In this document: positions 609-60,100 of the stretch, one piece after another
Layout: each line of letters starts with the position of its first letter
How positions within the stretch are numbered: the stretch's first letter is position 1
Source of the DNA: Norana najaformis
Lineage: Eukaryota > Annelida > Clitellata > Crassiclitellata > Hormogastridae
Length of the DNA stretch: 64,000 nt
Assembly (NCBI GenBank): GCA_964023275.1
Contig: OZ029918.1
Location: 19,696,361-19,760,360, forward strand
Direction: 5' to 3'
Translations under genes and position numbers: made by a program
Notes under the pieces: generated by a model
What the model was told of the DNA's origin: nothing
Seen by the model: the letters and a program-made list of their open reading frames with translations, nothing else
The model's database searches: none

Positions 609-2540
609 ATGAATGAATGAATGAATGAATATTAAGAGATTAACGTACCAGACATAAAAAATAATTTGAATCAGAGGCACGATCAGTCGCTCGGGGGGGG
701 GGCAGCCAGTAGCAAACGAGGGAAAACTAGGTGATACCTAGTTATCAACTAGTTATCAAAATAAAAGATTTTAAGTTGCTGCTTGAAGCATGAGACTGAT
801 GGAGTGGAACGGATTGAGAAAGGAATGTTGTTCCAGATCACAGGCTAGGCCGAACAGAAAGCACGTTCCCCAATAACTTTGCCCAAATAAGGTTGTCGCA
901 GCTTCAGAGGGTCACTAGATCGTGTGCTACGAACAGGAACATGAAAATCAATTAAAGATCGGAGATAGGCAGGTTGCTGGTTATGGAGAAGTTGATAGGT
1001 GATTGTAGCTATTTTAAAATCAATGCTTCTTGAAACCGGGAGCCAGTGAAGTTGTGACAGAGTATGCCAGCAGATGAAAGGTTGCACTTAGGATGGACAA
1101 GGTGAGCTGCCAAGTTCTGTACCTGCTGTAATTTTCTGATATTATAAGACGGGGTATGGAAGAGGATAGAATTGGCATAGTCAAGTCTAGATTGGACAAG
1201 AGCAACGGCGATCGCAGCTGCCATACCATCAGTGAGAACCGAACGAATGTGTCTTAAGACTCTAAGATGGAAAAAAACGGTTTTGCAGACGGCTGAAACA
1301 TGTTGCTTAAAGGTAAGGGTAGCATCAAGAATGACTCCAAGGGTTGTAATGTTTTCTGAAAGGCTCACATTTGTACCAGCTAAATTAATTTTGTGAATGG
1401 GAGGAAAGTGACGTAAACGTTGATGGGTGCCAAGGAGAATTGCATCTGACTTGTTGGGATTAAGACAAAGACCATTTTGATAGAACCAGGAATTCAGTGA
1501 AAGCATACACTGTTCAAGCATGCTAATGCCGGTATCAAAGCTGTCAGATGAGAGGACAATATATGATTGAGTGTCATCAGCATACTGCTGATGGGAAATG
1601 CCAAAATAAGATATAAGATGACCAACAGGAGAAATGAAAGCAGAAAAAAGAATTGGGCCAAGCACAGAGCCCTGAGGAACACCAGTGTCCAGAGGAGTAG
1701 GAGTAGAAATTGACTGGCCGATTCGAATGGTTTGAGAGCAGTCTGACAAGTAGGATGAAAGCCAATTGAGGGCAGTTTCAGAACTGCCAAAACTGCTGCT
1801 GAGTCTGGAAATGAGCATCGCATGATCAATGGTGTCAAATGCGGCGCTAAGGTCAAGTGAGACCAGAAGTGTGGGTTGGCCAAGGTCTGCAGCACAGTAA
1901 ATGTTATTTAAGCTGTAAAGTAAGGCAGTTTCCATTGAATGGGATGGTCGGTAGGCAGATTGAAGGGTATTGAAATTTGGTGATCCAGTGATGTGTGGCT
2001 GAAGTCTGGCAAGAAATAACCGTTAAGTATTTTTGAAATATTATTGAGGTTGGATATTGGGCGGTAGTTGGAAGGACAGTCCGGGTCAAGACCAGGTTTC
2101 TTGATAAGTGGGGTGACTGCTGCTGTTTTGAACAACAAAGGAAAGATGCCATCACAAAAGGAGAGATTGGCCAATTTACAGATGAGTCCAGAAAAAATAT
2201 AGGAACATGATTTTAGCAGAGATGCAGGGATAAAATCAACAGATGATGATTTACATTGCATGGAAGTAATAATTTTGTGGACTTCTTGAAGTGTAACAGG
2301 TGCAAAAAAGTGAGTGGGGAACCCGAGCACAGAGGATTGGGGAAAACAAATGCGGTGGCAGAGGCAGCAGTAGAGGCGACTGACCGTTTTAAATTAGCAG
2401 TCTTGTCCATGAAAAATTTTGAAAACAAAGAACAGTCTGTCAAGCTCATTAGTGGTGCGATTATACGCTTTTTGACTGGTAATCTGTGTATGAACTTGCC
2501 CTATATATCAATGCGATGTATGAATTGACTTTTAAAAAAT
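609..2540 (-). mobile_element. LINE-C copy 1 (CR1/L2-like non-LTR retrotransposon, 5'-truncated)
   Basis: The element reads on the minus strand. Its 3' tail of ATTC repeats appears on the + strand as (GAAT)n at 609-631. Upstream of the tail are a C-terminal domain, a reverse transcriptase and a pre-RT region that runs to about 2540. The pre-RT part keeps NYRPISNLNNISKIL (about 2030-2090). A frameshift near 1935 separates it from the RT core. A second, poorer copy of the same family lies at 17604-19500. Truncation is presumed to reflect incomplete reverse transcription. Confidence 0.85.
1009..1935 (-). pseudogene. Reverse transcriptase core of LINE-C
   Basis: The frame is open for 308 codons. 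Motifs in order are LVSLDLSAAFDTIDH (first catalytic Asp block), GVPQGSVLGPILF (fingers-palm block), QYADDT (catalytic YADD), LNPNKSDAILLGT and LGVILDATLTF (thumb). This order and the YADD box are those of CR1/L2-clade retrotransposons. The upstream pre-RT segment (1908-2330) is in another frame, so the protein is broken here. It would have copied the element's own RNA onto nicked chromosomal DNA. It is not a host gene. Confidence 0.85.
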
Positions 2541-9519: not shown

Positions 9520-9944
9520 AATGCTCATGCCGTAGTTCATCCTTTGCTAAAGAAACGTTCTCTCGACTCTGGCAACCTGTCTAATTTCAAACCCATCGCA
9601 ACTTTGAATTTTGAACTTTGAGTTTTGAATTCTTGAATGGATAGTTGTGAATCATGTGCAAGCTCACCTGTTTTCCGACTCGCAAACTTCCCTGTTTTGT
9701 GAATCGTGTGCAAGCTCACCTGTTTTCCGACTCGCAAACTTCCCTGTTTCAGTGTGCATACGGCGAATTCCCTGAAATCCGCCCATTTTACTGTTCATAA
9801 CGATGTCATGAGCTCCATGGATGACAGAAGGGTTACAGCACTTGTTCTTCTTGACTTGCCTGCTGATTTCAATACTGTGGACCACTTTTTTCTTTTTATT
9901 GTCTTCAGCACTGGTTTGGGGTTTCTGATCCCACCCTGAGTTAG
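9520..9944 (+). mobile_element. LINE-D fragment (pre-RT and start of RT)
   Basis: The + strand frames give HPLLKKRSLDSGNLSNFKPI and MDDRRVTALVLLDLPADFNT followed by VDH. These are the pre-RT and first catalytic block of the CR1-like family seen complete at 57953-59603. A 52-bp direct duplication (9647-9698 and 9699-9750, both with GCAAGCTCACCTGTTTTCCG) interrupts the reading frame. Confidence 0.65.
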
Positions 9945-10040
9945 CTTGCTACTTATCTTGCTACTTATCTTGCTACTTATCTTGCTACTTATCTTGCTAC
10001 TTATCTTGCTACTTATCTTGCTACTTATCTTGCTACTTAT
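9945..10040 (+). repeat. 12-bp minisatellite, 8 perfect units (CTTGCTACTTAT)
   Basis: Eight identical 12-bp units lie head to tail. They begin exactly where the LINE-D reverse transcriptase frame would encode Leu-Ala-Thr-Tyr. In that frame the array reads (LATY)8. The unit seems to have arisen by expansion of four RT codons. Confidence 0.95.
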
Positions 10041-10225
10041 CACCGGCATGATAGAAGTTACTAAGTAATAAATAATGATAATGTGGGCCAGTATTAGTAG
10101 TCACCTGTCCATTCTTTTGAGGTCAGTAAATGGGTACAGTAAAAGTTGTGACCTTAAAAAGGTCATATTGTGTGCACATAGGCGTGTGACTGCCAGCTGT
10201 TTAGTCTTGTTGGAATACATCTGAA

Positions 10226-23700: not shown

Positions 23701-26700
23701 GTACATATACAGTAAAATGGCTGCATCGAGTAATAACATCTGTATGGAGAGCAGAGGAAATCCCTATGGACTGGAGAAAAGCAGTCATTATCCCAGTATA
23801 TAAAAAAGGAGACAGACAAGAATGTGGCAACTCCAGGGGAATCAGCCTATTAAGTGTACCAGGCAAAGTTTTCACCAGAATCATCCTGAATAGAATGGCA
23901 GATAGAGTGGATGGCATCCTACGGGAAAATTAAAGTGGATTTCGAAAAGGGAGAGGATGCTCAGATCAGATCTTTGTAATCCGACAAATCATCGAAAAAA
24001 GAATTGAATACAATAAAGAAACAGTTATGTGCTTCATTGACTTTGCCCAGGCCTACGACTCAGTCTGGAGATCAGGAGCATGGAAGATCTTGGAGAAATA
24101 TGGCATTCACGCCAAATTAATCAGACTCATAAGAAAACTATATGGCACAATAATGGCATGCATTCGATTAGAAGGAGACGAAACAGAATGGTTCAAGATA
24201 GAAACAGGTTTCCGACAGGGATGCATCTTGTCACCAATCTTGTTTAATATGGTATTGGACTATATCATGAGACGTCTGGAAAGAACTCATAATTTGGGAG
24301 CACAATCTCAACCAAGAAATACAGAGGATGTCGAATATGCAGATGATGCATGTATGATTGCAGAATGCCTAACAAGAATAATGGAGTTGTTGGAGGCATT
24401 AGCAGAGGAAAGTGGAAAACTTGGACTGAAAATTAACTATAACAAAACTAAAATAATGCCAATAACAAAAAAGGAATACAACGGGCCAATAGTTAAGCTT
24501 AAGGGACAGGAAATTGAGGTAATAAATAAGTTTGTCTGTCTGGGAAGTGAAATGAAAGCAGGGGGAGGATCAGAAACAGAAATCAAAAGGAGAATAGCGC
24601 TTGCAGGGTCAACCTTTAACAGGTTACAAAAGGTCTTCAAACGACATGATATAAAACTGGCGATAAAGCTAAAAATCCTCAACACATGCGTGATCCCAGT
24701 ACTAATCTATGGATGTGAGTCATGGAGTATTACAAGAGCAATGGAGAATAAACTGAATGCAGCAGAAAACAAATGGCTCAGAAGAATACTAAGAGTTAGC
24801 TATAAGGAACATGTAACGAATGAAAGTATTAGACAACGAACACAACAACCATTGATAAGCAATATGATCAAGAAAAGAAGAATGAAGTGGGCAGGACATG
24901 TCCTGAGGATAGGGGAGAATCGTAATCCAAAGAAAATCTTTAAATACAAACCGGACGGAAAGAGAGCAGTGGGAAGACCGAAAAGAAGATGGATAGATTG
25001 CCTTGAAGAGGATCTGAAAGGTGCCGGAGTTACTATCTATGGGAAAACGGAGGGCAGACGGAGAATGACCCTTGAGGAGATGGCCGGGAAACGAGATTTG
25101 TGGAGGGGTGTCATAGAGAAATCAACGACTGGATCCAGTCCAGAGATGATTACATGACATGACATGAAGAACCTGACAATGCACTAAGAACCTCACAAAT
25201 GCACTGTGAGCACATAGGTGTAACCTTGGCTAAGAGAACAGCTAAGCTCTTGCTGGGATGGGGTGTGGTGCAGATCTGGACTGTGCTGTGGTGGGCAAAG
25301 GCACAAGGACCATAATTTATGTCAGCTACAGCTGCTTCTAGGTGTGATCCCTTTGCCAGTTTGGAGAGAGCGACATGTACAGTTATATGAAGTTCACTTG
25401 TTTTGGAACTGTACTGCCAGGGCTTAAAGCCAGCTGTAGTTAGGAACTGTTGCCGTCCATTGAGGCAGCTGTTACAGCTGATACAGGCTGTCTGTATAAT
25501 GATGGTGAGACTGAATATTAGCCAGTGCAGCCTGTTTATTGAGTGTACCATGTGTTAATGCATCTCACGTATTAGGTATCATTGGGTGCCATGGCATGAC
25601 CACGCATTAAGTGGATTTGCGCATAAATGGGACTGTACTGTATGAATATGAGTGATATGACTCACCGGGGTCTGCAATCAAAAGAAAGAGGAAAAGAAAA
25701 AGGAAATGCCTGAACAGGAAAGTTTCACATGTATTGTCCATTCATATGTAAATGAGATTGGAGATTAACATGCGAGAGGTCATTAATAAAGATTACATAC
25801 TAACTAGTCCATGTACCATGCATTAGCAATTTCCATATGTTAAGCCAGCATAACCACAACGCTTGTTACTGGAATTCTACTGTGATAATATTGTACAGTT
25901 AATAAAAAATAAATTACAGTTGGTCTGGTTTTAGATTATAGAATCTGAGTCTTCAAAAGTAGTCTTCAGTCGATTCAGCAAGATGGCAGCGCTGTCTGTT
26001 ATGCGTTTTGTTTACTCAGCTGAAGCAGATGTCCATCATTTGGTTGTGTTTGAAGCAAAGCGACTTGCAGAGAGGTAACAAACAGACAGTGCATTTGTTG
26101 TACTTTGTGAAAGCATTATGACTGCCTGCAGTCTCCAAATGTTAGGACTTGATTGGATAAGAAATTGGCTTCATAGAGTGAAGTTGATTGTATTGTGACC
26201 CTTAATGGTTCCTTGTCAATCACTTTGGAAGGATTTTTGTCTCTGGCTGAATTACGAGGGAGCAAAATATCTCAGACAACTTTTGAAACTAATGGACGAT
26301 TGACAAGGCAGACAAGTTATGATAAGCACTGAGAAACTTACTCCGTAAGGGTTGTAAAAATGATGGTCAGTGTTACTGTTATAGGAGTTAACCTAAAGAG
26401 GGGTGCAAGAGTATGTATTGCTTGATAAATGAGAGCTTTTAAACTGTAAATAATTGGGTGATTGAAGTAATGTGCCCTGAAATTAAGAATTTGGTTTTTT
26501 GTGTGATGCACTAGGAAATTTAGTCCAGAACTTAACAAATCTAATGTGTCTAAAAGCTCTATTGTCATGTTTCGTACTTAATGACAGGGAGTAGGTAGTT
26601 TTATTAGTTCATCTGCTGTGTCCTAAATTTTGGGATTGGATTTTCTATCAACAGAAATTCATTTAGTTAGCATGGAGCAGTGACTGTTTAATAAAATTTG

Positions 26701-28785
26701 AGGTTTGTTAAAAATTTCTTTCGGTCTGTAATCTCCTAGACTAACATCACTGTTCTAAAAAGCTACCTATAATCTTTGGCACGAGATAACATGGCCTATC
26801 TCTAATCAAATTCAAATGCCATTTTCATTTTCAATTTGAAGTAAAATCTTTCTCTTTCAAAGAACAAACATTACCACGTAAATATGTACAGTTTCTGTCT
26901 TAACCAGTCAACAGTCACCACCTCAAAGACCAAACTAATACTGACTAACTTTAAATCTATACACAGTTGGACATATATGCATTGCACTCAAGCCCATAGC
27001 ACTTGCCTGCCTGAACACATAAATGAATGAACTTCTGAGCTGGACATGTGCTCACATGTCCCTCACATCTCAGCCATAATTAATAATGGTACCAATTTTT
27101 GAGTTTTATGAATAATGTTCTTGTAATTTCTTTTGCTGTTACTTGTTGAAGTGAAACTTTAAATGTGTGTTGTTTTCCTTGTAGTTTACAGCTTACTGAT
27201 TTCTGTGAAATCTGTGAAAATGTAATAAAGACTTACGATCTCGTTGAGTCGACGGCACCTGAAGCTTCTGCTGCAACTTTAGAAGACCTTGTCATGTGCG
27301 GCTGGTTTGATGGATTGGATCAGATGCAGAGAGACAAAGAAGACTCATGGGGTGGCAGTGGAAAGGCAGTAGAAAAGGAGGAGGAAGAGAAGGATACAGA
27401 CTTGGATGAGGTTTATACTTTCATGCTGACTCAAAGGAGAAATCAAATGAATGGAGGAGGAATCACTGAGGATGAGGATAATGAAAGAGAGACATCAAAG
27501 AGGAGCACAGAAGATAATGATGAGTTTCAAATGATGAATGGTTTTAAGTTGTGTAATGGATCAGGTGATGAAGATCAAGATGACATGTTGCTTGAGTTGA
27601 GCCCGGCTGCCTCTGTTGGTGAGGAACAGTCTACAATTATTTCATCAGGGAAATCACACAAGGCCAAGAGTTATGCCTCATGTGGCTCAGCAGTGAACAC
27701 ACCAGAAGGTGTATCAGTTGATGCCCAGACATTTCCAGATGAAATTCTGAGTGAGAAGAAGGAATGTAGCAGTGTGCACGTGGAGTTGTTTGGTGAAAAG
27801 GTTCATAAGTCTTCAGATTCATTGCTGATTGATTTTATGAGTGAAAATTCTAACAGAACAAGAGATTTGGTTGCAGTAGAAGATGAAGCACAGAGATGCT
27901 TGTCTGACAAAGGTGATGATGATGATGACAACGATGATGATGAGAAGGGTATTCTTCCTCGCAAGTCTAGTGAGGAATTTGGATGTTCTGCTGCTGCTGC
28001 TGAGTTGAACCATGATAAAGATCACAGAGAAACATCTCGTGTGGTGGATGGATCTTGTCTTTCATTTTGCATTCTCAGAACAGACCCTATTATTGAGCAT
28101 CCATTAGATTTAACTGATTGCTCTCCAGTTGTTAGATTTGACACCAGTAAACAGGGAGAAAAAGAGCCATTGGTATTGTATACGTCAATTGTACCACTGA
28201 AATCAGCCTCCTCCTCCTCCTCCTCCTCCTCCTCCTGGTACTCTGCCAAAGGCCTTGTTCCTTCATCTTGCCATGCCAGCGGATCAAGTGATGTCATTTC
28301 TAAGCATGGCACTGGTCTTGTTTCCTCGTGCATTCTTTCAAGTGACAGCCTGTCTCCTGATCTATTCCCATCTTCCCCATTTTTTGAAAGCATAGTGTCA
28401 CCTGTTGTTTCTGTTCAGGAGTCATGTGTGTTGCTACAAGCAGCCAAGAAACTAAAAAATGTTCTGGATACAGACAAGGTTTTCGGAGAAGAGTTGGAGA
28501 CAAGTGAATCTACGATTGATTGTGCAAGAAACTTGTTAACAGAAGGTTCAGGAAGAGATATTGAAAGACAGAACGAGGTTGAATATGAAAAGCACAGACA
28601 CATTTCAGTGGATATTCAGAAAAATTCAGACAGCTCCATATACCATGAGAAAAGCATTTTGGAAACACCATACCAATCACCGGTGCATGGGTACAGTTTT
28701 AGTCAAGGGAGTCATTTTGATGCAAGGCATCAGTTTCTTTCACAGGTGGCTGAGAAGTTGACAGGTGAGGACTTTTTACCTGACA

Positions 28786-28816
<31 letters not shown>

Positions 28817-31800
28817 TAAGGTGCAGAATCCAACTGAAACAGCTTCTGAGCAGAACATGACTTCAGTTTTTTTAAATTGCAATGAAAATTGTGTGAATAA
28901 AGATAATAAGTCAACCAACAACAATGAAATCAAAGATAGTTCATTCAGTGATGAAGGATTGTTTCCTCATGACATGAAAACTTTGCAGTTGTCTCCAGGT
29001 GTGGAAATTGGTATTAGAATGACCCAAATGTATGAATCCTTTCGAAATGACGTAGCTTTGCACTCAAAATCATTATCATCCTGCAGAATAAATTCACCTG
29101 TTATGACTTATAAACTAGAAGATATCTGTCAGATGCCAGACAGCAAAACTTCAGGGGATATTTTGAATGCAGAGACAAAATATGAGGAATATAGTGAGAA
29201 GAAGAGACAGAGCAGTTTTGACGATGCTCCTGACTCTGCAGCCTGTGATGGTCACCATGATGTTGATGATGATCATGATAACGAGAATACTGCTCAACAC
29301 GTTTCCATTCAGTGTGATTATGAAGTATCAGCTGCTGTGTTGGATTCTAACGAGAGAATTTGTGATGAGAAGAAAATTTGGGAGAATTTTCCTGAGAAGG
29401 AATTTGCTCCTCATGTGTTCTTTGAAAATGACAAAAATGTTTCACATGTATGTAGTATGAGTATTTTGATTACTTTACAAATACACATCACTAGCTTATA
29501 CACATTTTGCTCAGTCAAGATTAGTTTTTGGGTATTCTTAATTTAGGAGAATATTGCCTTATTATGTTTAGACATCTTAACACTCAAAAAAGATATTTTC
29601 TGATAAGGCAGACTTCAAAGAACTTTTGTTCTTCCATATCACAGATTTGAGTTAATTGAAGCAGCCACATTTTCTCAGATTGCATCAGAATCATTCTAAA
29701 GTTGCAATGCAAGAGGTATCTGTATGGTTAGTGGAAGTGTGAAACATTTAATAAATATACATACATTATAAACCCTAAGATCATTATAAAACAAAGATGT
29801 GCTGTGCCAAATGTGATTAGTCTTATTTTGTAAAGGGTTTACTGTCTGCTGTAATCCTTTGGCTTTTCTGGTCTTATGAACCTGTTGTCTTTAGATGCAG
29901 TTGGCCTTAACTCCTAAGTCAATGAAAATGCAAGGACACTATACTGCAGGTAGACTTAGGTTTAGTCCTCCTACAGACATGGAGACTGATGTGAGTGCTG
30001 TGATGGAGGACATTGTTGCCAACTCAAGTCTTCTCAACTCGGATGTTTCATTTGAGACCAGCAGCGTTAGTGTTCTGCTCACCTTTGCATCTCTCTTAAG
30101 ATGTTTTGAGCAATATACTGTGTTGACTGGTGATCTAGTTTCTTTGCTCTAACATGTTCTTTACCCAACAGTCATTATCAGCAACCTGAAATTACAACCC
30201 TGGGGTTGGAATTGCAATTGTTGGGTGGGAGTGCATCATAGGCTAGTGGTTAGAATGTAAGACTGTCAACCCAGAGGCAGGAAGTTCAAATCTCCACCAG
30301 GTCTGAAAGATAGTTTAAGATTTCTGTTCCAGTAGCAACCCTTAGTGAACTCATTACAGTGTATATAAAATCAGTACATCAACCGTGCACTGTCGGTAAA
30401 AAATCAGTAGGTAAAGAGGACTGACCACTTGCCTTCATATGCTGAGGCTAAGAAAATGAAGTCTTTAATATTTCATGTCCATTGGTGTGTATCAGTGTTG
30501 GCTGAAGGATCTGCTGTTCTTTTTCTTGGCACACAGGTCACAAATGGGTTTTGCTTTTTGTTTGCTTTGATAAAGTACACTGTTTGGCTCTGATATTGTA
30601 CAATTGCTGAATTATACCTCTGGTGAATGCAACACTTGACCATTTTTCTTGCCTTACTTATTTTTATCAAATGAAATGCCTGTAACCTGATGTTCATATT
30701 ACATGCAGGATACGAGGTGTGCTTCGTGCATTTAAGTTTGCCTTGTTGCTTTCAAAACACAGGATACTGCTAGGACAATGGTCAATGCTAAATCGCCCAT
30801 GGTCAACACTGTCCAACAGATCGATCGATCGGATATTGCTGGCACTTCAGTTCTAAATGTGACACCACTACCCAGTTATGGGCAGATGAACACTCCTGCT
30901 TTACAGGTGAGTATAATTTGTTCAATGCTCTTCAAGTAACTAGGTTGAGGTCTATCTGTGCATATGTGCTTCTTCATGTTTATGTTGCATCTCTTTTGGA
31001 CTTCTCGAGGCTCTTAAGCAGGACATTTCAACTGATGTGGAAAGGCAAGTTTTAGGGTTGGTTGAAAATGTTTCTTGAGGTATATCTGATGGAACAGCCT
31101 AAATTTCCATGGTAGATTGTTTCAGCAGGACGTTTCAATGCATGAGAAAGTGTGATTGGGTCAAATCATAGTACTAAAATGCAAACAAAGAGGTACTTGA
31201 GGGTTGCAGAAAGTACTGCATTGATTTTTAAATGGCTGGCTTGCGACAAGAACATGGGTCCCTGCTGTATTCTTGGGCTGCTCTGGTATCGAAGCATTCT
31301 TCTTGGGGAAGAGCTTGATGCATTTTATTGCATACCCTCAACAACGATAGATCTTGAATGAACTGTCTTGGGTTGTATGATGTACATATGTATGCTTGTA
31401 TGCATGCATGTATGTATGTATGTATGCATGCATGTATCTGAACTTGTATATCACATTTTAAGGAGTTCGCAGAGGCATTGGTTGTGGAAATTTTTGGTAA
31501 AAGGACAAACACAATAAAAGTGTAAGATTGTGGGCAGTTAATTTATCAATGTGATTTAGTACATTTGAGCCATTGATTCAGTGTGATTAGTGCTTGGCCA
31601 TCCAGATAGCCTGTGATGGATTTAAATCTATGAGAAATGAAGCTTGACAGATCTTTTCCACTGAAAAGTAGAAGAAAAACAGAGGATAGGTGATTGTTAG
31701 TTGAGACAAGTCTGAATCAAAACAGAGTCAATGAAGGAAGTTTGTTAATTCAAAACAGTCAGTCCTCGGTCATATGAGGATGTTATGGGAAGAGGAGAGT

Positions 31801-42115: not shown

Positions 42116-44750
42116 TTAACCCTATTGAGTTTGAATTAATTTTAAAGCCCAGCCTGTAAAGTCCAGCTTAATTTTAAGTCATGACGTCAAAAGTCTGAAT
42201 TATTTTACGTTTTTACAAGAAATCTTCAAAATTTTGTACAAGTCATTACTCATTCATTACTGAAGATAGAAAGGTGCTTCTTAAATCAAAATTTTCATAA
42301 ATGTGTCCTGTTTCTTGTGGCCATATTGGTTTTGTAAAATAACAAATTGGAGTGCCTACAGTCACCCTGGAACTGAAAGCACCCAAAGTTTTTCATTTGG
42401 ACAAAAATGTTGTGTGGTGAAGTTTTAAAAATTAAAAAATAACAAAAACTGCCTTATTCAGAATTAAGTCCTGAATAAAATGCTGATAAATGTAGACCAT
42501 AATGCCCTCTACTGAAGGTCAGGTGCACAATGTGAGACTACAAAAAAGAGGCCAACTTTCTTACTTAGTTAATGGCCATGGATAAATTATGGATTGAAAT
42601 CATAATTTTGTTATTTCATTTCAAGTTGTATTCTTTATGCCATTCCTGGAAGCATCTTGCTTACAAAGGGGTACTTCACAGAGACTGCACATAAAGGTGC
42701 TGGTTCTGTATTTGCCGCCTGCTCTCCGTTTACCCTTTTTTGAGCAGTTATGACAATTTTTTTCATTTATTTTAACCAGCTTGTGACCCTCAACTCCAGA
42801 ATTGAGAGCAGCGCTAAAGGTGGATGTTTCTTGGGGTGAATTCCCTTGAATCTTAGAAGGGTGTCCTCGAGTGTGAGCTGGTTGAAATCTGTCACAAAGT
42901 TGATACACAAGGTCATGACAAAATTTCAGATGACTATGACGCCTGCCCTCTTTTGTATCATCCTGACTCTTCACCCAGAGAATGTAGGCATTGATTATGC
43001 TACATTCACCATCCACCACAATGAACATCTGCACCATTTCTGTCCATCTTGTCCAGGCTCATAATGTGAGCACAGTTGGCTTAATTTATCGACTCCACCC
43101 ATAAACCGGTTATACTCCAGATTTACAAGTGGCTTTCCTTGTTCAGAAATGCCGGAACCATGACAGGTGGAAAGAAAAGAAATTGTTCTTTTGTCTCAAA
43201 ATATTGTTAGGATAACAGGTCCTTTCTGATATTTAGCCACATCACCTCTTTACTTCAGTTTAGTCTGGCAAGCCTTTTGTGGAAGGCCTCTCCAATTCAA
43301 CTTTATAGTAAAGTTGAATTGGTCTTGTCATTGAAAAGGCTTGTTGCTAAATCCAAGGAACTAAGTACTGATCATAGTACAAATGATGGCTCTAGCCAAG
43401 AAACCCCAAACTCCACTTTTAGAGTAAAGGGTTCTGACAGCATCATAACCCGGATCATGCTGTCTTCTTATTGCATCATAGTTTGGGTTAGCTTTTCCAG
43501 TGTAAACATTGAAACTCAAACAGTAACTGGATTGTGCTTCAGCCAAAATCCAGGCTTTTAAGCCCCATTTTGTTGCTTTACACGGCATGTACTGCCGGAA
43601 AGAAACCCTTTAAAATAACCATGGCTTCATCAACACTCAGTTCCCTATTTGGAATGAATGTTTTTGAAAAGCAAGCATTCAAGAGATCAACTATGCTGCT
43701 GACTTTGTACAAGGGATCGAATCCTGGTGTGCCACGAGGAACAGCCTTTGAGGCATCGCGGAGATGCAAGTACTTATTCAGAAACCGGAATCAGTCTCTT
43801 GAAAATGCCTTGGCAATTGTGTTGCTTATGAAGCAGCCACAAGTTCCACTTCAAAACAACTGTATTATCGGTGCAGGACACATGCCTGTCAAGATGTTCA
43901 TGGCAAAATAAGCCATCATTTCCTCAAGGTAAGTTGGAGACCATTTCCACTGATGGGGTTTCCCATCCATCTGTGCTGCAGACCTGGTCTGCTCTGCATA
44001 GAGGTTAGTCTGCTGGACAACCTCAATAAACCAGGAGACAGGCAACAGTAAATTTAAAAAATCATAGGCCCGGGCATCAACTTGAAGTTGATGCACCAGC
44101 CCAGAAATCTTTTCATATGGTCTCACTTGGGGTGGTCAAACAGAGTGGGACGATTCTTCCTGAATCTCATCAGATTTCATGCCATCATTCATATATTATA
44201 TAATTCTCACCCTTTCATCGCCTAATTAGGCAGCAATCGGACAACAGCTAATCGAACTAGGCGGTGGCCTTGCTTAGCTGCATCCAGTTAAAGCCATTTA
44301 CTCTCGCACGTTATACCTTGTTTGCATGCCTAGGGCTGCCTCTCGTATAGCTATACATAGCATTTATTTATATCCAAGCCAGAGCTTGAAATCTTTTTAA
44401 TATTGCCAGTATTATTCTCTAATAAATATTCATGGAAACGTGACACTAAATCTTATTGGAAACGACCCACATGATGTAAATTGGTGCCTTAGATTATGTA
44501 AACAATCATCTGTCGAGTGCAACATTTGGCTGTTTTAAAAGTTTTTCTCAGTTAAAATCTGCTTCCTGATTAAAAGCAGCCTTTATTTCCATGGATTAAC
44601 ATCTCTTACCGCCCACCTATAGAAATCTACAATGGACACATTTTATTTAGCAAACAAATACTTTAAAACAATCCGTTGTTTTCCAGACATTTTCGTTATC
44701 GACTCCAGCGCTTACCCAGTAAAATCCGGTAATGGACTTTAGAGGTTTAA
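42116..44750 (-). mobile_element. piggyBac element with TTAA target duplication
   Basis: The element proper is 42120-44746 (2627 bp), flanked by TTAA at 42116-42119 and 44747-44750. Left end CCCTATTGAG and right end CTTTAGAGGT are weakly inverted. The host LINE reading frame is interrupted within its QSG block: TCTGGTTTAA before the element and TTAACTAAATGCCAC after it rejoin to the LINE motif 'HQSG..K.H.TET'. The minus strand carries the transposase relic. Confidence 0.9.
42621..44126 (-). pseudogene. piggyBac transposase, broken into four or more pieces
   Basis: In order on the minus strand: LVHQLQVDARAYDFLNLLLP and TNLYAEQTRSA (44126-43851); FLNKYLHLRDASKAVPRGTP and NRELSVDEAMVILKGFFPAV, the block with the first catalytic Asp (43790-43578); MPCKATKWGLKAWILAEAQS and SFNVYTGKANPNYD (43588-43361); FMGGVDKLSQLCSHYEPGQD near 43090, the last catalytic Asp block; INAYILWVKSQ; and a Cys-rich C-terminus CHNCSKKGKRR ... 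FMCSLCEVPLC (42720-42660). The order and the C-terminal Cys-rich domain are those of piggyBac. Several stops and shifts inactivate it. Confidence 0.88.
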
Positions 44751-44897: not shown

Positions 44898-46207
44898 TCT
44901 CTCCTTGATATCTCAGCAGCCTTTGACACCATTGATCACAATATCTTAATCCAATGACTTTCAACCTGGTTTGGTTTTACTGACAGTGCTCTCCTCTGGA
45001 TACAGTGCTATCTCTCCTCCCGCTCTTTCTCCAGTAAAACTTTGGAGCCTCTTCTCAATCATGTCCTCTTGATTGCGGAGTTCAGCAGGGCTCTGTTCTT
45101 GGACCTCTTCTGTTTATCATATACACTACCCCACTTAGTTCACTCATTAAAGCATCCTCAGTTGACTATCACCTGTATAATGATGACACTTAGTTATTCA
45201 TCTCTTTTTCTCTTAATTGTTTTATCGAGTCTATAGATCATGTTCTTCGTGTGGTTAAACAAATCTCCTCCTGGATGATATCTAATCTCTTGTTCCTGAA
45301 CCCATCTAACACTGAATTCATACTTATTAGCATATATGAAAAGCTGAAGAAAATTCCTGAACCTTCTATCTATCTAAGCCTGGACTCTGCCTCCACCCAC
45401 ACCTTTAATACCCCCAAACACACCTTTAATCTGCAATTTAGGTGTAATATTCTATCAAAACCTCACTTTTCTGATCATATCACCCATCTTCCCACTGATG
45501 CATATCTGCAGTCTTAGCAGAATCCACCCTATGCTTGACTTCAAAACTGCATCTACCATTGCCACATCCATAATCCATGCAAAAATAGACTACTGCAATT
45601 CACTTTTCCTGAATATAAATACCACTCAAATAAACTGCCTTCAGGCCATACAGAATGCTGTCGCTTGTGTTGTCACCAAAACCTCCGAACATCTGTTCTC
45701 AAGTCATGCCACTGGCTTAAAATACCTGAGCACATAGAGTAAAATGTTCTTTCGCTTACCTATAACACACTTCAATCCTTCCAACCCTCTTATCTTCATC
45801 AGTTATTTACAATCCAACCACTCTGTTCAACCCGATCCTCTTCTGTCCTAACACTTCTTCGCTGTCCTGTCACCTCATCCTTAAAATTTGGAAATCACTT
45901 CATAGCCAACCCTCTGGAATAAACCCCTGCCAGAATTACAACAATTATTAAGTAACACAATTTTGTGCCTGGGTAGTAAGTGTTAGTTCTTACTTGCTTA
46001 TGCTTCAAAAGTAAAGAAAATGGCTGTTTTTCCCTTCAAACTTTGCTTTTGTGACCAGGACAATGATATTTCAAAATTTACCTATTTCCAATGAAGAAAC
46101 GGGCGAATTTGCGTGTTTTCTTGCAAATAAAGTAAAAAAAACAACATGTCAATAAATAATAACATGTATTTACACTACAGTTATACAAATAAATGACCAA
46201 AAAAGAT

Positions 46208-47499
46208 TTAGAAGTGAGTAGTTTTTTTAGATTTATGATTATACTGTAAATCACTTTCACAAATCAGCCCCCAGATGTAGTCTCCCATCCTGTTCTCGTT
46301 ATATGTCCTTGGTAGCAACGTTCAGAGTCCAGTATATCCTGGTGGAAGCGCTTGACTTGCTCCTATGAATATGCTCCCATGTTCTCCTTGAAGTTATCAA
46401 GGTGAGCATCAAGGATATGAACTTTGAGGGACATACTGCAGCCCATTTTGCTGTAGTTCTTCACCAGAGTCTCAACCAGCTTCACAGTGTTCAGCTTTGT
46501 GACTGCCCAGGAAGCCCCTAACCACTGCGACAAAGCTGTTCCAAGCTGCTTTCTTCTTCCTAGTGAGCTTCTTGGGGAATTCTTTGCTCTCCAGGATCTT
46601 CTTTATCTGTGGTCTGACTAAGACACAGGGGCTGTGACCTTTGCCTCATACAGCTTAGGGAAGAAGTCTTAAAGGTACTTGAAGGCTGCTGACTCCTTAT
46701 CTAGAGCTGTAACAAATTGTCTCTTAAGGCCCAATTTGATGTACATTGGTGGCATCAGCACCTTCTGGGTATCCACCAGTGGCTCCCACTTAACATTGTT
46801 CCTCCCCACAGAGAACTTTGTCCGCTGTGGCCAGTCCCGCCTGTGGTAGTGCATCTTGTTGTCCTTGCTGTCCCAAAGGCAAAAGTAACAATGTGTCACC
46901 AGAGCGATGGATGAATGAAGGTCCGGATATGTGATAGCAGGTGCATTCATGCCAGTCCGATGTTTGGAAGAATCCACCATGCAAAAGTAGCAATTGCTTG
47001 AGTGGTCAGTGGGTTCATGCTACATTTTTGGCATAGCAAACTCCATGGCTCTCTTTTCCCTCTGTACCATACTGCAAAAGAATTAAATAAAATTGTGATC
47101 TTAACAAAATAAACGTATTTCACACATGACTAATATGTAAGACATTCTTGCAACATATTTCATATATTGTATATTTGTTCAATAACATTGGAAATTTTAA
47201 AAAATTTTGAAATTACAACATTTCACACTGTTAAAACTTTTATAACTTAAAATGTTGCCATCTAATCGAGTATCAGTTGTCCATCTTACCCTCCAGCATT
47301 TTTTTGCAGTGCTCACAGGTGAAATGAGGTGCCCAGGGTTTTTGTCTTGATCCCCAACAGGCGTTCCAAAATATGCCATGTGGGCTTCACACATCTTAGC
47401 AAATGCTTCCTCGGAGTACTTTTTTGCTGTTGTCTTGATAAATTGGCCGCAGACATAGCTAAATGCCTCTGCTGGATGCTTGCAGCCTCTTGATGCCAT
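46208..47499 (-). pseudogene. Uncharacterised 'PVGDQDK-PWAPH' family protein, two exons, decayed
   Basis: Exon 1 (47499-47290) starts MASRGCKHPAEAFSYVCGQF and reaches MAYFGTPVGDQDK. After a one-base shift it reads PWAPHFTCEHCKKMLE. The intron is 47289-47072 (GTAAGA...TTTTGCAG). Exon 2 reads WYRGKR, a 2-base insertion, AMEFAMPKM, stop, HEPTDHSSNCYFCMV, then GPQIRKILESKEFPKKLTRK, SLKVHILDAHLDNFKENMGA, SEEQGEHFHQDI and a C-terminus MGDYIWGLICESDLQYNHK ending at TAA 46210-46208. I remember this family from repeated, unnamed proteins of Hydra and arthropods. Its function is unknown. Cys pairs (CEHC, CYFC) suggest zinc binding. It is lightly damaged. Confidence 0.75.
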
Positions 47500-47530
47500 C
47501 TCAGATATGTATCCTCTTAGACAGGTACAA

Positions 47531-47582
47531 CTAAACTGAACTGGTGGGCTTAAGGCCACTGTATTTATACTGCTATTTATAT
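47531..47582 (-). promoter_or_regulatory. TATA boxes and initiator of the TIR-element gene
   Basis: On the minus strand TATAAATAG (47581-47573) and TATAAATA (47569-47562) are followed by TTCAGTTTAG (47540-47531). That sequence contains the arthropod-type initiator TCAGTT about 32 bases after the second TATA box. The start codon at 47499 is ~38 bases farther. The geometry is that of a complete core promoter. Confidence 0.75.
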
Positions 47583-47650
47583 TTCTGGAAAGTTCCAGAA
47601 GGTTCTCAGACGTTCTAGATTATTCTAGAAAGTTCTAGAAAGTTCTAGCA
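47583..47650 (-). promoter_or_regulatory. Heat-shock element array, 13 units
   Basis: TTC and GAA alternate every 5 bases. TTC lies at 47583, 47593, 47603, 47613, 47623, 47633 and 47643. GAA lies at 47588, 47598, 47628 and 47638. One-base variants occur at 47608 (AGA) and 47618 (GAT). Eleven of thirteen pentamer units are perfect. Three alternating units already make a functional binding site for trimeric HSF. The array touches the distal TATA box. Confidence 0.85.
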
Positions 47651-48060
47651 GTTACTCCAAGTTTACTCAGCACTGAATTCATCTTGAATGTTCTGGTTAC
47701 AGAAGCAAAGTTTGCGGGGAATAATAGCCATTTTCCATACTTTTGAGGTATAGGATATTAGGAAATAACTCTTACTTCCCAGGAACAAAAAATAAATAAA
47801 CACTTGTTACACGGTGATTTATCTGAACTCACTAACACCCATTCTAATCTCTGTGCTGGTCTTTCACTCAAAACTGGAAAAATTACTTTTTCAAAAATTT
47901 TATCCTTATTCTTCCTCCTCCCCTCATCTCTCTTCCCACTCCAATTTCAAACACCATTCACTGTAGCCATCCAGCTCTCTGTCTGCCTGACTCCTGGATT
48001 GTGACCTGGAACTGAATACTTTCTACTAGTAAATAAAATTTAACATGAAAATGTTACGAA

Positions 48061-57190: not shown

Positions 57191-60100
57191 ATGGCGCAGA
57201 ACGACGAAAGGTTCGAGTCTTTGAGAGCGAAGTGCTTGAAATCTGGACGGCTGTACGAAGATCCGTCATTTCCAGCAGAAAATAAATCTATTTACTTCAG
57301 CAGGGACGATCCTTCGATTGTCTGGCGAAGACCGCCAGTACGTTTCTAATGAATCTAATATTTGAGAAGTCTGTAGTACCATCGTTGCTTTACTTTACGT
57401 TAATCATTAATCGTATCGTAATCGTAATCCCAAGATTTCTACAGCGCCCAACGAAAGCCGCGTCATAGCAACCAGCTTATTCACAGGCGCTCAGTCAAAA
57501 ACAAATTCGATAGGCAAAAGGGTTCGGTTCCAGGTCAAGATCCAAAAGTCTCGCGCATTGAAGTCTGATCCAATCTAAAAACTTCTATAGTGCCATTGTA
57601 ATAATGCTCGAGGCATCAGTCGATGGTCGCCGCAAAACAAAATCATTGTCCAAGCCAAAGTCCATGGTGAGTCCGGGTCAAAAAGCCGGAGAGGAGTCCA
57701 GAAGTCACAGAGACAGCCTACGGAAGAAATGAGTTTTCAGTTGAAATCTGAAGGCAGAAACAGACTTTGCTGAGCGAACATTTGCCGGAAGAGAGTTCCA
57801 GAGTCTAGGGCCAGCGACAGAGAAGGCACGCCTGCCAAGAGCTGTTCTCATCCACGGAATAGTCAGATTAAACAGCTAGAGTGGAGGTAAGTCTTGGGAG
57901 GCAGTACAGAGTGAAGATAGTGAGGTTGGTTGAAATGTAGAGTCTTCTAATCTAATCTAATCTAATCTAATCTAAAAACTTCTATAGCGCCACTGTAATA
58001 ATGCTCAAGGCATCAGTCGATGGTCGCTACTAAACAAAATCATTGTCCAAGCCAAAGTCCATGGTGAGTCCGGGTCGAAAAGCCAGACAGGAGTCCAGAA
58101 GTCACAGAGACAGCCTACAGAGGAAATGAGTTCAGGAAGAGGTGAATTTTTAGTCGAGATCTGAAGGCCAAAACAGACTTTGCCGAGCGAATATTTGCCG
58201 GAAGAGAGTTCCAGAGTCTAGGGCCAGAAACAGAGAAGGCATGCCTGCCAAGAGCTGTTCTTGTCCAAGGAATAGTCAGATTTAAACAGCTAGAAGACCT
58301 GGTCGAGTGGAGGTAAGTCTTGAGAGTCAGTAGAGAGTGAAGATAGTGAGGTTGGTTGAAATGTAGAGTCTTGTATACAATTAATCCAGTCTTGAACATT
58401 ATGCGCTTTTCTGTGGGCTACCAGTGCAGTGATTCTAGGATTGGTGATATGTGATCATATTTCAGAGTTTTAATGATAGCTTTCACCAATGTATTTTTAA
58501 CTCTTTGAAGCTTCATCAAATTAGTTTTAGAAATGCCAGTAAGAAGCGAGTTGCAGTAGTCGAGACGGCTGGAGACAAGGGCATTAGCCAAACAAACCAA
58601 GGCAGAGAAGGGAATGTGGCCCCTAATCCTACAGATATCATGAATGTGGTAGTGGACAGACCTACATACAGAATTGATATGTTCATTGAAAGTCAGATTG
58701 GAGTCAAATACAACACCCAAATTGCGGGATGAACTGTTGCATTTCACGACAGAGATGCCTAGATGGACGGAATTCAAAGAATTAAATTTAGTCAGTTGTT
58801 GTGAGGTTCCAAAAAGGAGAAACTCAGTTTTCGATGGGTTGAGGAGCAGTCCATTTTCTGCCATCCATGACTGAACTTGATTAAAAACGTCAGATAATAG
58901 AATGAGAGAGCTGGAAGAAGAGGAATTATCAAAGGAAATGTAGAGTTGAGTATCATCAGCATAAAGATGGTGCTTCAGAGCACTTTGACTAAGTAAAATG
59001 CCTAGTGGAGTAGCGTACAAGGAGAAAAGCACGGGGCCAAGAACAGAGCCTTGAGGGACACCACAGGTGAGTGGTATCTGGTCCAACATTGCACCACTGA
59101 TGTAGACAGATTGAGTACGAAAGGCAAGATATGATTTGAACCAGTTAAGGGCCAGACTTGATATACCAAACCAGTGCTCAAGGCAATGAAGCAGTATAGC
59201 ATGATCGACAGTGTCGAAAGTGGCAGACAGGTCAAGAAGAGCAAGTGCAGTTACTTTGCCATTGTCCATGGAGCAGATTATGTCATTGTGGACAGAGAGA
59301 TGAGCTGTCTCAGTGGAGTGGAATTTGCAATATGCTGACTGGAAAGGGAGGAGTAAGGAATTTGAAGACAGATGTGCCTCCAATCGACATTTAACAACGT
59401 GTTCTAGAAGTTTAGAGATAAAGTTCAAGTTTGAGATTGTTTGGTAGTTTGACATAGTTTCAGCATCCAAAGATGGTTTCTTCAGCAAAAGATGGACAAT
59501 CGCATGAGAGAAACATGTTGGGAAGGAGCCGTCAGCAAGTGACCGATTGATTAATGTCAAGATTGTAGTTCCAAGCACATCAAAGCAGCTTTTGAGAAGG
59601 TAGTTTGATGTGCTTGGAACTACAATCTTGAAGTGAATTCAGTCAGTAATTATAATCCAGTGCAGAGGTGCAGTAGGGCTGCCAACCGTCCCATATTCAC
59701 CTGGACAGTCCCGGAATCAGCTTTGTGTGTCCCGTGTCCCGGATTCTTTCCAAATTGTCCTGGAACTTAGTGTAAATATCTACCAAATTTTGTTCTTCTT
59801 TTCGCACACTAAACTCGAACAGTCGGCTGTACATAAGTTTTACAGAGTGACCATAGAATAGAGAGAGGGTAGTTAGGTTAGTAGACCCAATAAATGACAT
59901 CAGCAAATTGCATACATCATGCATGTATATGTGAACTTCGCTCGTGGTAGACCCTGAAGCCTGGTAGGTTACTGGAATTTAATAAACGTTTTGCTCTTGA
60001 AGTTGATTCAAATTTTATATATAGGCCACTTGCCTCTGTTGTGCTCCATGGATAAGGGTAAGGTGACAGCTCTTGTTCTCCTTGATTTGTCTGCTGCCTT

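Follow-up and report, generated by a model that had tools for sequence, protein, structure and literature searches.

A Chapaev3 DNA transposon with a dense array of putative heat-shock elements at its 5' end was identified in a 64,000-nucleotide stretch of the genome of the annelid Norana najaformis (contig OZ029918.1, positions 19,696,361 to 19,760,360), hereafter the window. The array is followed by TATA boxes, an initiator-like motif and the start codon of a transposase gene, and it recurs in most of the other examined copies that retain a 5' end. The window copy itself is, by its sequence, dead. Its ancestor was likely a Chapaev3 element with a heat-shock-type promoter inside the 5' inverted repeat, which would have induced the transposase under stress. 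Since most of the examined copies with a 5' end have the array, activation by heat or protein stress was probably part of the transposon's design.

The promoter block and its recurrence among copies

The array consists of thirteen consecutive 5-bp units, eleven of which are exact. Read on the plus strand in steps of 5 bp from 47583, the cores are TTC GAA TTC GAA TTC AGA TTC GAT TTC GAA TTC GAA TTC, the inexact units being AGA and GAT (2/13). The array adjoins the first of two minus-strand TATA boxes, both reading TATAAATA, and is followed by the initiator-like TCAGTT and by an ATG at 47499 (-). Measured from its first T, the second TATA box is 32 bp away from the initiator A, and this A lies 38 bp from the ATG, the spacing of a functional core promoter. 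The array, the two TATA boxes and the initiator make up a single promoter-like block, in which at least three contiguous alternating nGAAn units stand upstream of a TATA box, as in heat-shock-protein (hsp) gene promoters. A preliminary description of this DNA, made from its letters, had reported thirteen consecutive TTC/GAA units with eleven perfect, an array abutting the two TATA boxes and a start codon about 38 bases beyond TCAGTT, and all of this is confirmed. Its claim that thirteen in-phase units are far beyond chance also holds, as dinucleotide-preserving shuffles (n=20) reached a maximum of 5 exact units and the best site elsewhere in the window has 4 of 13. Between 45950 and 47500 no run of at least three exact units was found, so that the GAA/TTC array of the window copy is confined to its 5' end, and Rfam returned nothing at its gathering threshold.

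The assembly has 608,420,607 bp in 17 contigs, with the window on contig C6. When this genome was searched with 45950-47815, 40 of 435 candidates were scored and 39 copies other than that of the window were fetched. The 5' end is visible in 22 of them (L012-L033) and not in 17 (L034-L050); the stretch of L048, and probably that of L047, starts within the element, leaving the 5' end outside view. Flanks are 94-98% identical within each of two sets, L019/L032 on contig C12 and L020/L021/L033 on contig C2, which points to genomic duplications that carried the transposon along, and the 23 5'-bearing copies (the window copy included) were therefore counted as 20 separate insertions.

The array is carried by 19 of these 23 copies, that is by 18 of the 20 separate insertions. 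Twelve copies have 13 units and three have 12, while L014 has 11, L016 has 9 and L031 has 15; an indel in L012 leaves 6 in-phase units, 5 of them exact. It was lost by deletion in L018, and the duplicated trio on contig C2 keeps 5 units, with sequence changes inside the array and with loss of both TATA and ATG. Of the 19 array copies, 18 retain TATAAA at box 1 and 15 retain it at box 2, and every one has it in at least one of the two boxes. The initiator TCAGTT is exact in 12 of them and altered in four (L014, L015, L017, L025), while its region is absent in three (L019, L030, L032). A microsatellite expansion private to the window copy was considered and is ruled out by the arrays in separate insertions. 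The preliminary description had named such an expansion, or the lack of the array in other copies, as what would speak against a heat-responsive element, and had proposed comparing the array and the TATA spacing between copies; neither objection is borne out, and the boxes are kept in most array copies. From this comparison, the putative promoter is an ancestral feature of the family in this genome and not a private microsatellite.

The majority sequence of the array over the 19 copies is GAACT TTCTA GAACT TTCGA GAATA TTCTA GAACG TCCGA GAACC TTCTG GAACT TTCCA GAAAT. Twelve of its 13 cores are exact, with 38 of 39 core bases matching GAA/TTC, as against 16 of 24 spacer bases that follow a consensus of the spacers themselves (Fisher p = 0.0013, to be taken as a guide, since the bases are treated as independent and the spacer consensus is drawn from the same data). 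This suggests that, before the family spread, the bases contacted by heat-shock factor (HSF) were constrained while the spacers drifted.

Transposase family and decay of the window copy

As judged from its relatives, the element is a cut-and-paste DNA transposon of the Chapaev3 family, Merrow/Garfield clade. A relative protein of 562 aa, P0002, was used as the transposase reference. Residues D263, D317, E515, C336, C339, L384, H385, H493 and H498 are invariant across 31 aligned relatives, which thereby possess the DDE transposase with C(2)C, LH and H(4)H motifs that defines Chapaev3 in the text of the Merrow/Garfield paper (PMC4079192). The window copy keeps residues ~1-132 and 336-562 and is without 133-335, including D263 and D317, and the position of E515 is K. 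The relatives also have a two-exon layout of 78 + 484 = 562 aa, in which M79 of P0002 opens the second part and P0014, with 484 aa, starts there; the same split is described for lamprey Merrow (PMC4079192). The best protein identity is 82% over 63% of the query (P0002), a comparison made at the protein level, whereas Merrow proper is delimited by at least 80% DNA identity. Lengths are alike (2,451 bp for Merrow_PM in PMC4079192, 2,492 bp for copy L013), and hosts are in common with Merrow/Garfield, for example sturgeon, lamprey and silkmoths (PMC4079192).

The termini were compared as well. Chapaev3 elements are described as ending in 5'-CAC/GTG-3' and as making a TWA target-site duplication, with insertion between A and T (PMC4079192), and CAC termini, in the copies where they can be read, may be a likeness to Merrow/Garfield. 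Of the 22 fetched 5'-end copies of the present genome, 8 begin with CACNNTGTAA, most ends being decayed or unmatched by this pattern, and the 3' end is GTG in two copies, L042 and L049, then TAA and T, which would suit a Chapaev3 insertion. TWA precedes five of the eight CACNNTGTAA 5' ends, with A before four of those five, as seen on single sides of insertions. The 5' flank of the window copy does not fit a TWA target-site duplication.

Pfam gave weak matches to the transposase, below cut-off or with E no better than 0.0019, and the best E in sequence searches of PDB was 0.19. The predicted fold is like that of Transib and of RAG1, the enzyme that cleaves antibody genes (chains 6xny_A and 6pqx_A, 12% and 16% identical where aligned). 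This likeness, which concerns the transposase and not the promoter, extends to the DDE residues and to the way the C(2)C and H(4)H motifs are arranged. No relatives were confirmed in IMG/VR viral contigs or GTDB genome contigs. A new transposon superfamily had also been entertained and was dropped once the Chapaev3 paper (PMC4079192) matched.

The inverted repeats of about 120 bp which the preliminary description had placed around the gene are real, with 102 nt aligned and 80% complementary on both sides of it (Table 1). It had further held that the promoter drives this gene, and there is indeed an ATG downstream of the promoter block, but the gene is the broken remnant of a transposase with an internal deletion. 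On its sequence, the window copy is dead and incapable of encoding an active transposase, because the catalytic aspartates are deleted, E515 has become K, and stops and frameshifts are present. Its deletion junction is absent from the other scored copies reaching that place, L041, L043 and L047 being uninformative as they do not span it in one piece.

Table 1. Features of the Chapaev3 copy in the window
Feature	Position	Strand	Basis
Chapaev3 element, internally deleted copy	45950..47816	-	genome copies align over 45950-47815; 5' end (CACCGTG...) at 47816 by copy comparison; 3' end near 45950, approximate
5' terminal inverted repeat (aligned part)	47689..47790	-	repeat alignment
Heat-shock-element array, 13 units (11 exact)	47583..47647	-	window sequence, shuffle control and other copies
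TATA box 1, adjoining array	47574..47581	-	window sequence
TATA box 2	47562..47569	-	window sequence
Initiator-like TCAGTT	47534..47539	-	window sequence
Transposase exon 1 with frameshift (splice donor inferred)	47290..47499	-	sequence and relatives
Inferred intron (GT...AG)	47072..47289	-	relatives read uninterrupted across it
What is left of transposase exon 2, interrupted by stops and frameshifts (stop codon at 46210-46208)	46208..47071	-	comparison with relatives
Internal deletion junction	46885..46893	-	P0002 residues ~132 and 336 brought together
3' terminal inverted repeat (aligned part)	45961..46062	-	repeat alignment

The window contains other repeats. Long reverse-transcriptase open reading frames resembling those of long interspersed nuclear elements (LINE) lie at 23934-25157 (+), 58418-59638 (-) and 1009-2022 (-), with Pfam RVT_1 matches of E 2e-26 to 1e-31, and further broken pieces resemble LINE-like frames by eye. 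The frame at 42621-43058 (-) ends in a DDE_Tnp_1-like zinc finger (PF13842) and is presumably the tail of a piggyBac-type transposase. An open frame of 798 aa at 27150-29546 (+) has no Pfam match, and a 733-aa piece of it found only two homologues, with 57% and 50% identity. Finally, 9941-10041 is a tandem array of the 12-bp unit TTATCTTGCTAC (8.4 copies, 98% matches).

Proposed mechanism and competing explanations

For the active ancestor we infer HSF binding, induction, a coupling to transposition and selection on the promoter. The ancestral layout would have comprised a 13-unit array, TATA boxes, the initiator, a short leader and then the transposase ATG. Under heat or other protein stress, host HSF trimers would bind the array, RNA polymerase II would start at TCAGTT and the two-exon transposase would be made. 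Transposition would follow and so be coupled to stress, and multiplication of the family would spread the array through the genome. A bolder version, which we hold only tentatively and consider doubtful as a whole, is that of a RAG1-like cut-and-paste family with a self-contained heat-shock promoter that went through stress bursts, left behind nearly all long arrays of the genome and brought some nearby host genes under HSF control.

Several observations weigh against a stress-induced Chapaev3 ancestor. Each of the 39 fetched copies has a stop, frame change, deletion or truncation when read against P0002. Because every fetched copy is defective, transposase output from these 39 is unlikely today, and any present response would consist in transcribing remnants, or copies beyond the 40 scored. 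At unit 8 the family majority has TCC, and none of the 19 array copies has an exact core there. Decay after insertion is similar in cores and spacers (majority bases at 688/725 and 451/485), with no sign of present selection, which is the expectation for dead copies. In the window copy alone, the contrast between core matches (36/39) and spacer matches (19/26) is not significant (p = 0.075). In a word search, the main text of the Merrow/Garfield paper (PMC4079192) has 0 occurrences of heat, promoter, TATA and stress. In addition, a survey of those metazoan genomes at UCSC that have annotated Helitrons is reported to have seen dense heat-shock-element clusters only in Caenorhabditis (PMC6927752), which may speak against the array as an old Merrow trait, if a Merrow-bearing lamprey was included.

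That survey, together with an anatomy that is that of an hsp promoter, is what favours a recent capture of a host heat-shock gene promoter in this lineage only, the array being then an accident of origin and not an old Chapaev3 trait. We find this rather unlikely, although it survives best among the alternatives; the array is common to the examined insertions and so older than their spread.

It is also conceivable, with a lower probability, that the promoter is real and is served by a factor other than HSF, or by HSF in a developmental or germ-line role without heat. TTCnnGAA half-site pairs resemble the sites of other factors, STAT among them, and HSFs also act in germ cells without heat. However, 13 contiguous alternating units fit cooperating HSF trimers, not single STAT-type palindromes.

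A role in transposition itself, as a subterminal cis-element made of transposase binding sites and not as a promoter, is distinctly improbable. Subterminal repeats serve as transposase binding sites in CACTA elements of the CMC group, to which the present element belongs, and its array does lie directly inside the 5' inverted repeat. Nevertheless, CACTA-type repeats occupy both element ends, and the other end of the window copy is without an array. The GAAnnTTCnn phasing is moreover that of heat-shock elements, the array adjoins TATA, initiator and ATG at standard distances, and the three duplicated copies retain only 5 units.

Slippage of a simple tandem repeat that merely resembles heat-shock elements has very little probability left. 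In its favour, Tandem Repeats Finder reports a 10-bp period in the array (6.6 copies, 74% matches), array length varies between the extremes of L016 and L031, and the window copy by itself shows a weak contrast between cores and spacers. It is nevertheless largely refuted by the copies: identical units with unit-specific spacers recur in separate insertions, the majority cores are far better kept than the spacers, and the array stops at a conserved TATA box.

Long arrays in the genome and known heat-responsive elements

A perfect 6-unit pattern occurs at 71 positions genome-wide, and the reversed pattern, used as a composition control, at one. Fifty of the 71 positions were listed, corresponding to 43 loci on contigs C1-C9. 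Among these listed matches, the spacers agree with the transposon in 7 or more of their 10 free bases at 47 of 50 positions and 41 of 43 loci, a degree of match that random equal-base spacers reach in ~3%. Five of the 43 listed loci lie inside fetched copies (L014, L015, L023, L026, L031), and the remaining 36 family-like ones can be assigned, by their spacers, to the Chapaev3 family as its putative members. Because of the excess of 71 over 1 and of the family spacers at 47 of the 50 positions listed, the Chapaev3 family is probably where most of the long heat-shock-element arrays in this genome come from. Two perfect 6-unit arrays, at C8:33405632 and C9:331756, have spacers unlike those of the transposon and are clear exceptions among the matches listed; they are candidate host heat-shock promoters. 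Outside this genome, the IMG/VR contigs L001, L002 and L003 each have a perfect 8-unit GAA/TTC array, and promoter DNA patterns gave 0 matches in viral contigs.

Stress-induced transposition is an old idea, with few animal cases that have the sensor in the element's own promoter. Here a known, horizontally spreading family carries a candidate sensor of this kind across its insertions and is the apparent source of most long arrays. This opens two questions, namely the activation by heat of an animal DNA transposase and the addition of genes to the heat-shock regulon by its copies, as is reported of Caenorhabditis Helitrons.

Heat-responsive elements are known among retroelements. DIRS-1 is one of them, with another replication machinery. 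ONSEN, a copia retrotransposon of Arabidopsis, is alike in its heat-responsive transcription but is likewise a retroelement with other replication machinery (PMC6927752). In Cryptococcus a CMC element moves, but the proposed heat-shock elements sit in long-terminal-repeat retrotransposons (PMC12810828). An open-access literature search, covering titles and abstract openings, found no Chapaev3 heat-shock promoter and no DDE/RAG1-like element bounded by terminal inverted repeats with such a promoter.

The nearest likeness is Helitron1_CE of Caenorhabditis which, with its relatives, is described as carrying dense heat-shock-element clusters that are bound by HSF-1, with raised transposase mRNA (PMC6927752, eLife 2019). 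Like the present family, it is an animal DNA transposon with dense heat-shock elements and a source of many such elements in its genome; unlike it, it is a rolling-circle element with Rep/helicase (PMC6927752), whereas inverted repeats and a DDE-type transposase are found here. The preliminary description had considered a heat-responsive animal element bounded by terminal inverted repeats to be novel. The element is indeed an animal transposon so bounded, but Chapaev3 was already known (PMC4079192) and a heat-shock-driven Helitron of Caenorhabditis had already been published (PMC6927752). Both the family and the heat-shock-element-driven animal DNA transposon are known, and it is the combination with a DDE element bounded by terminal inverted repeats that appears new within the open-access literature searched.
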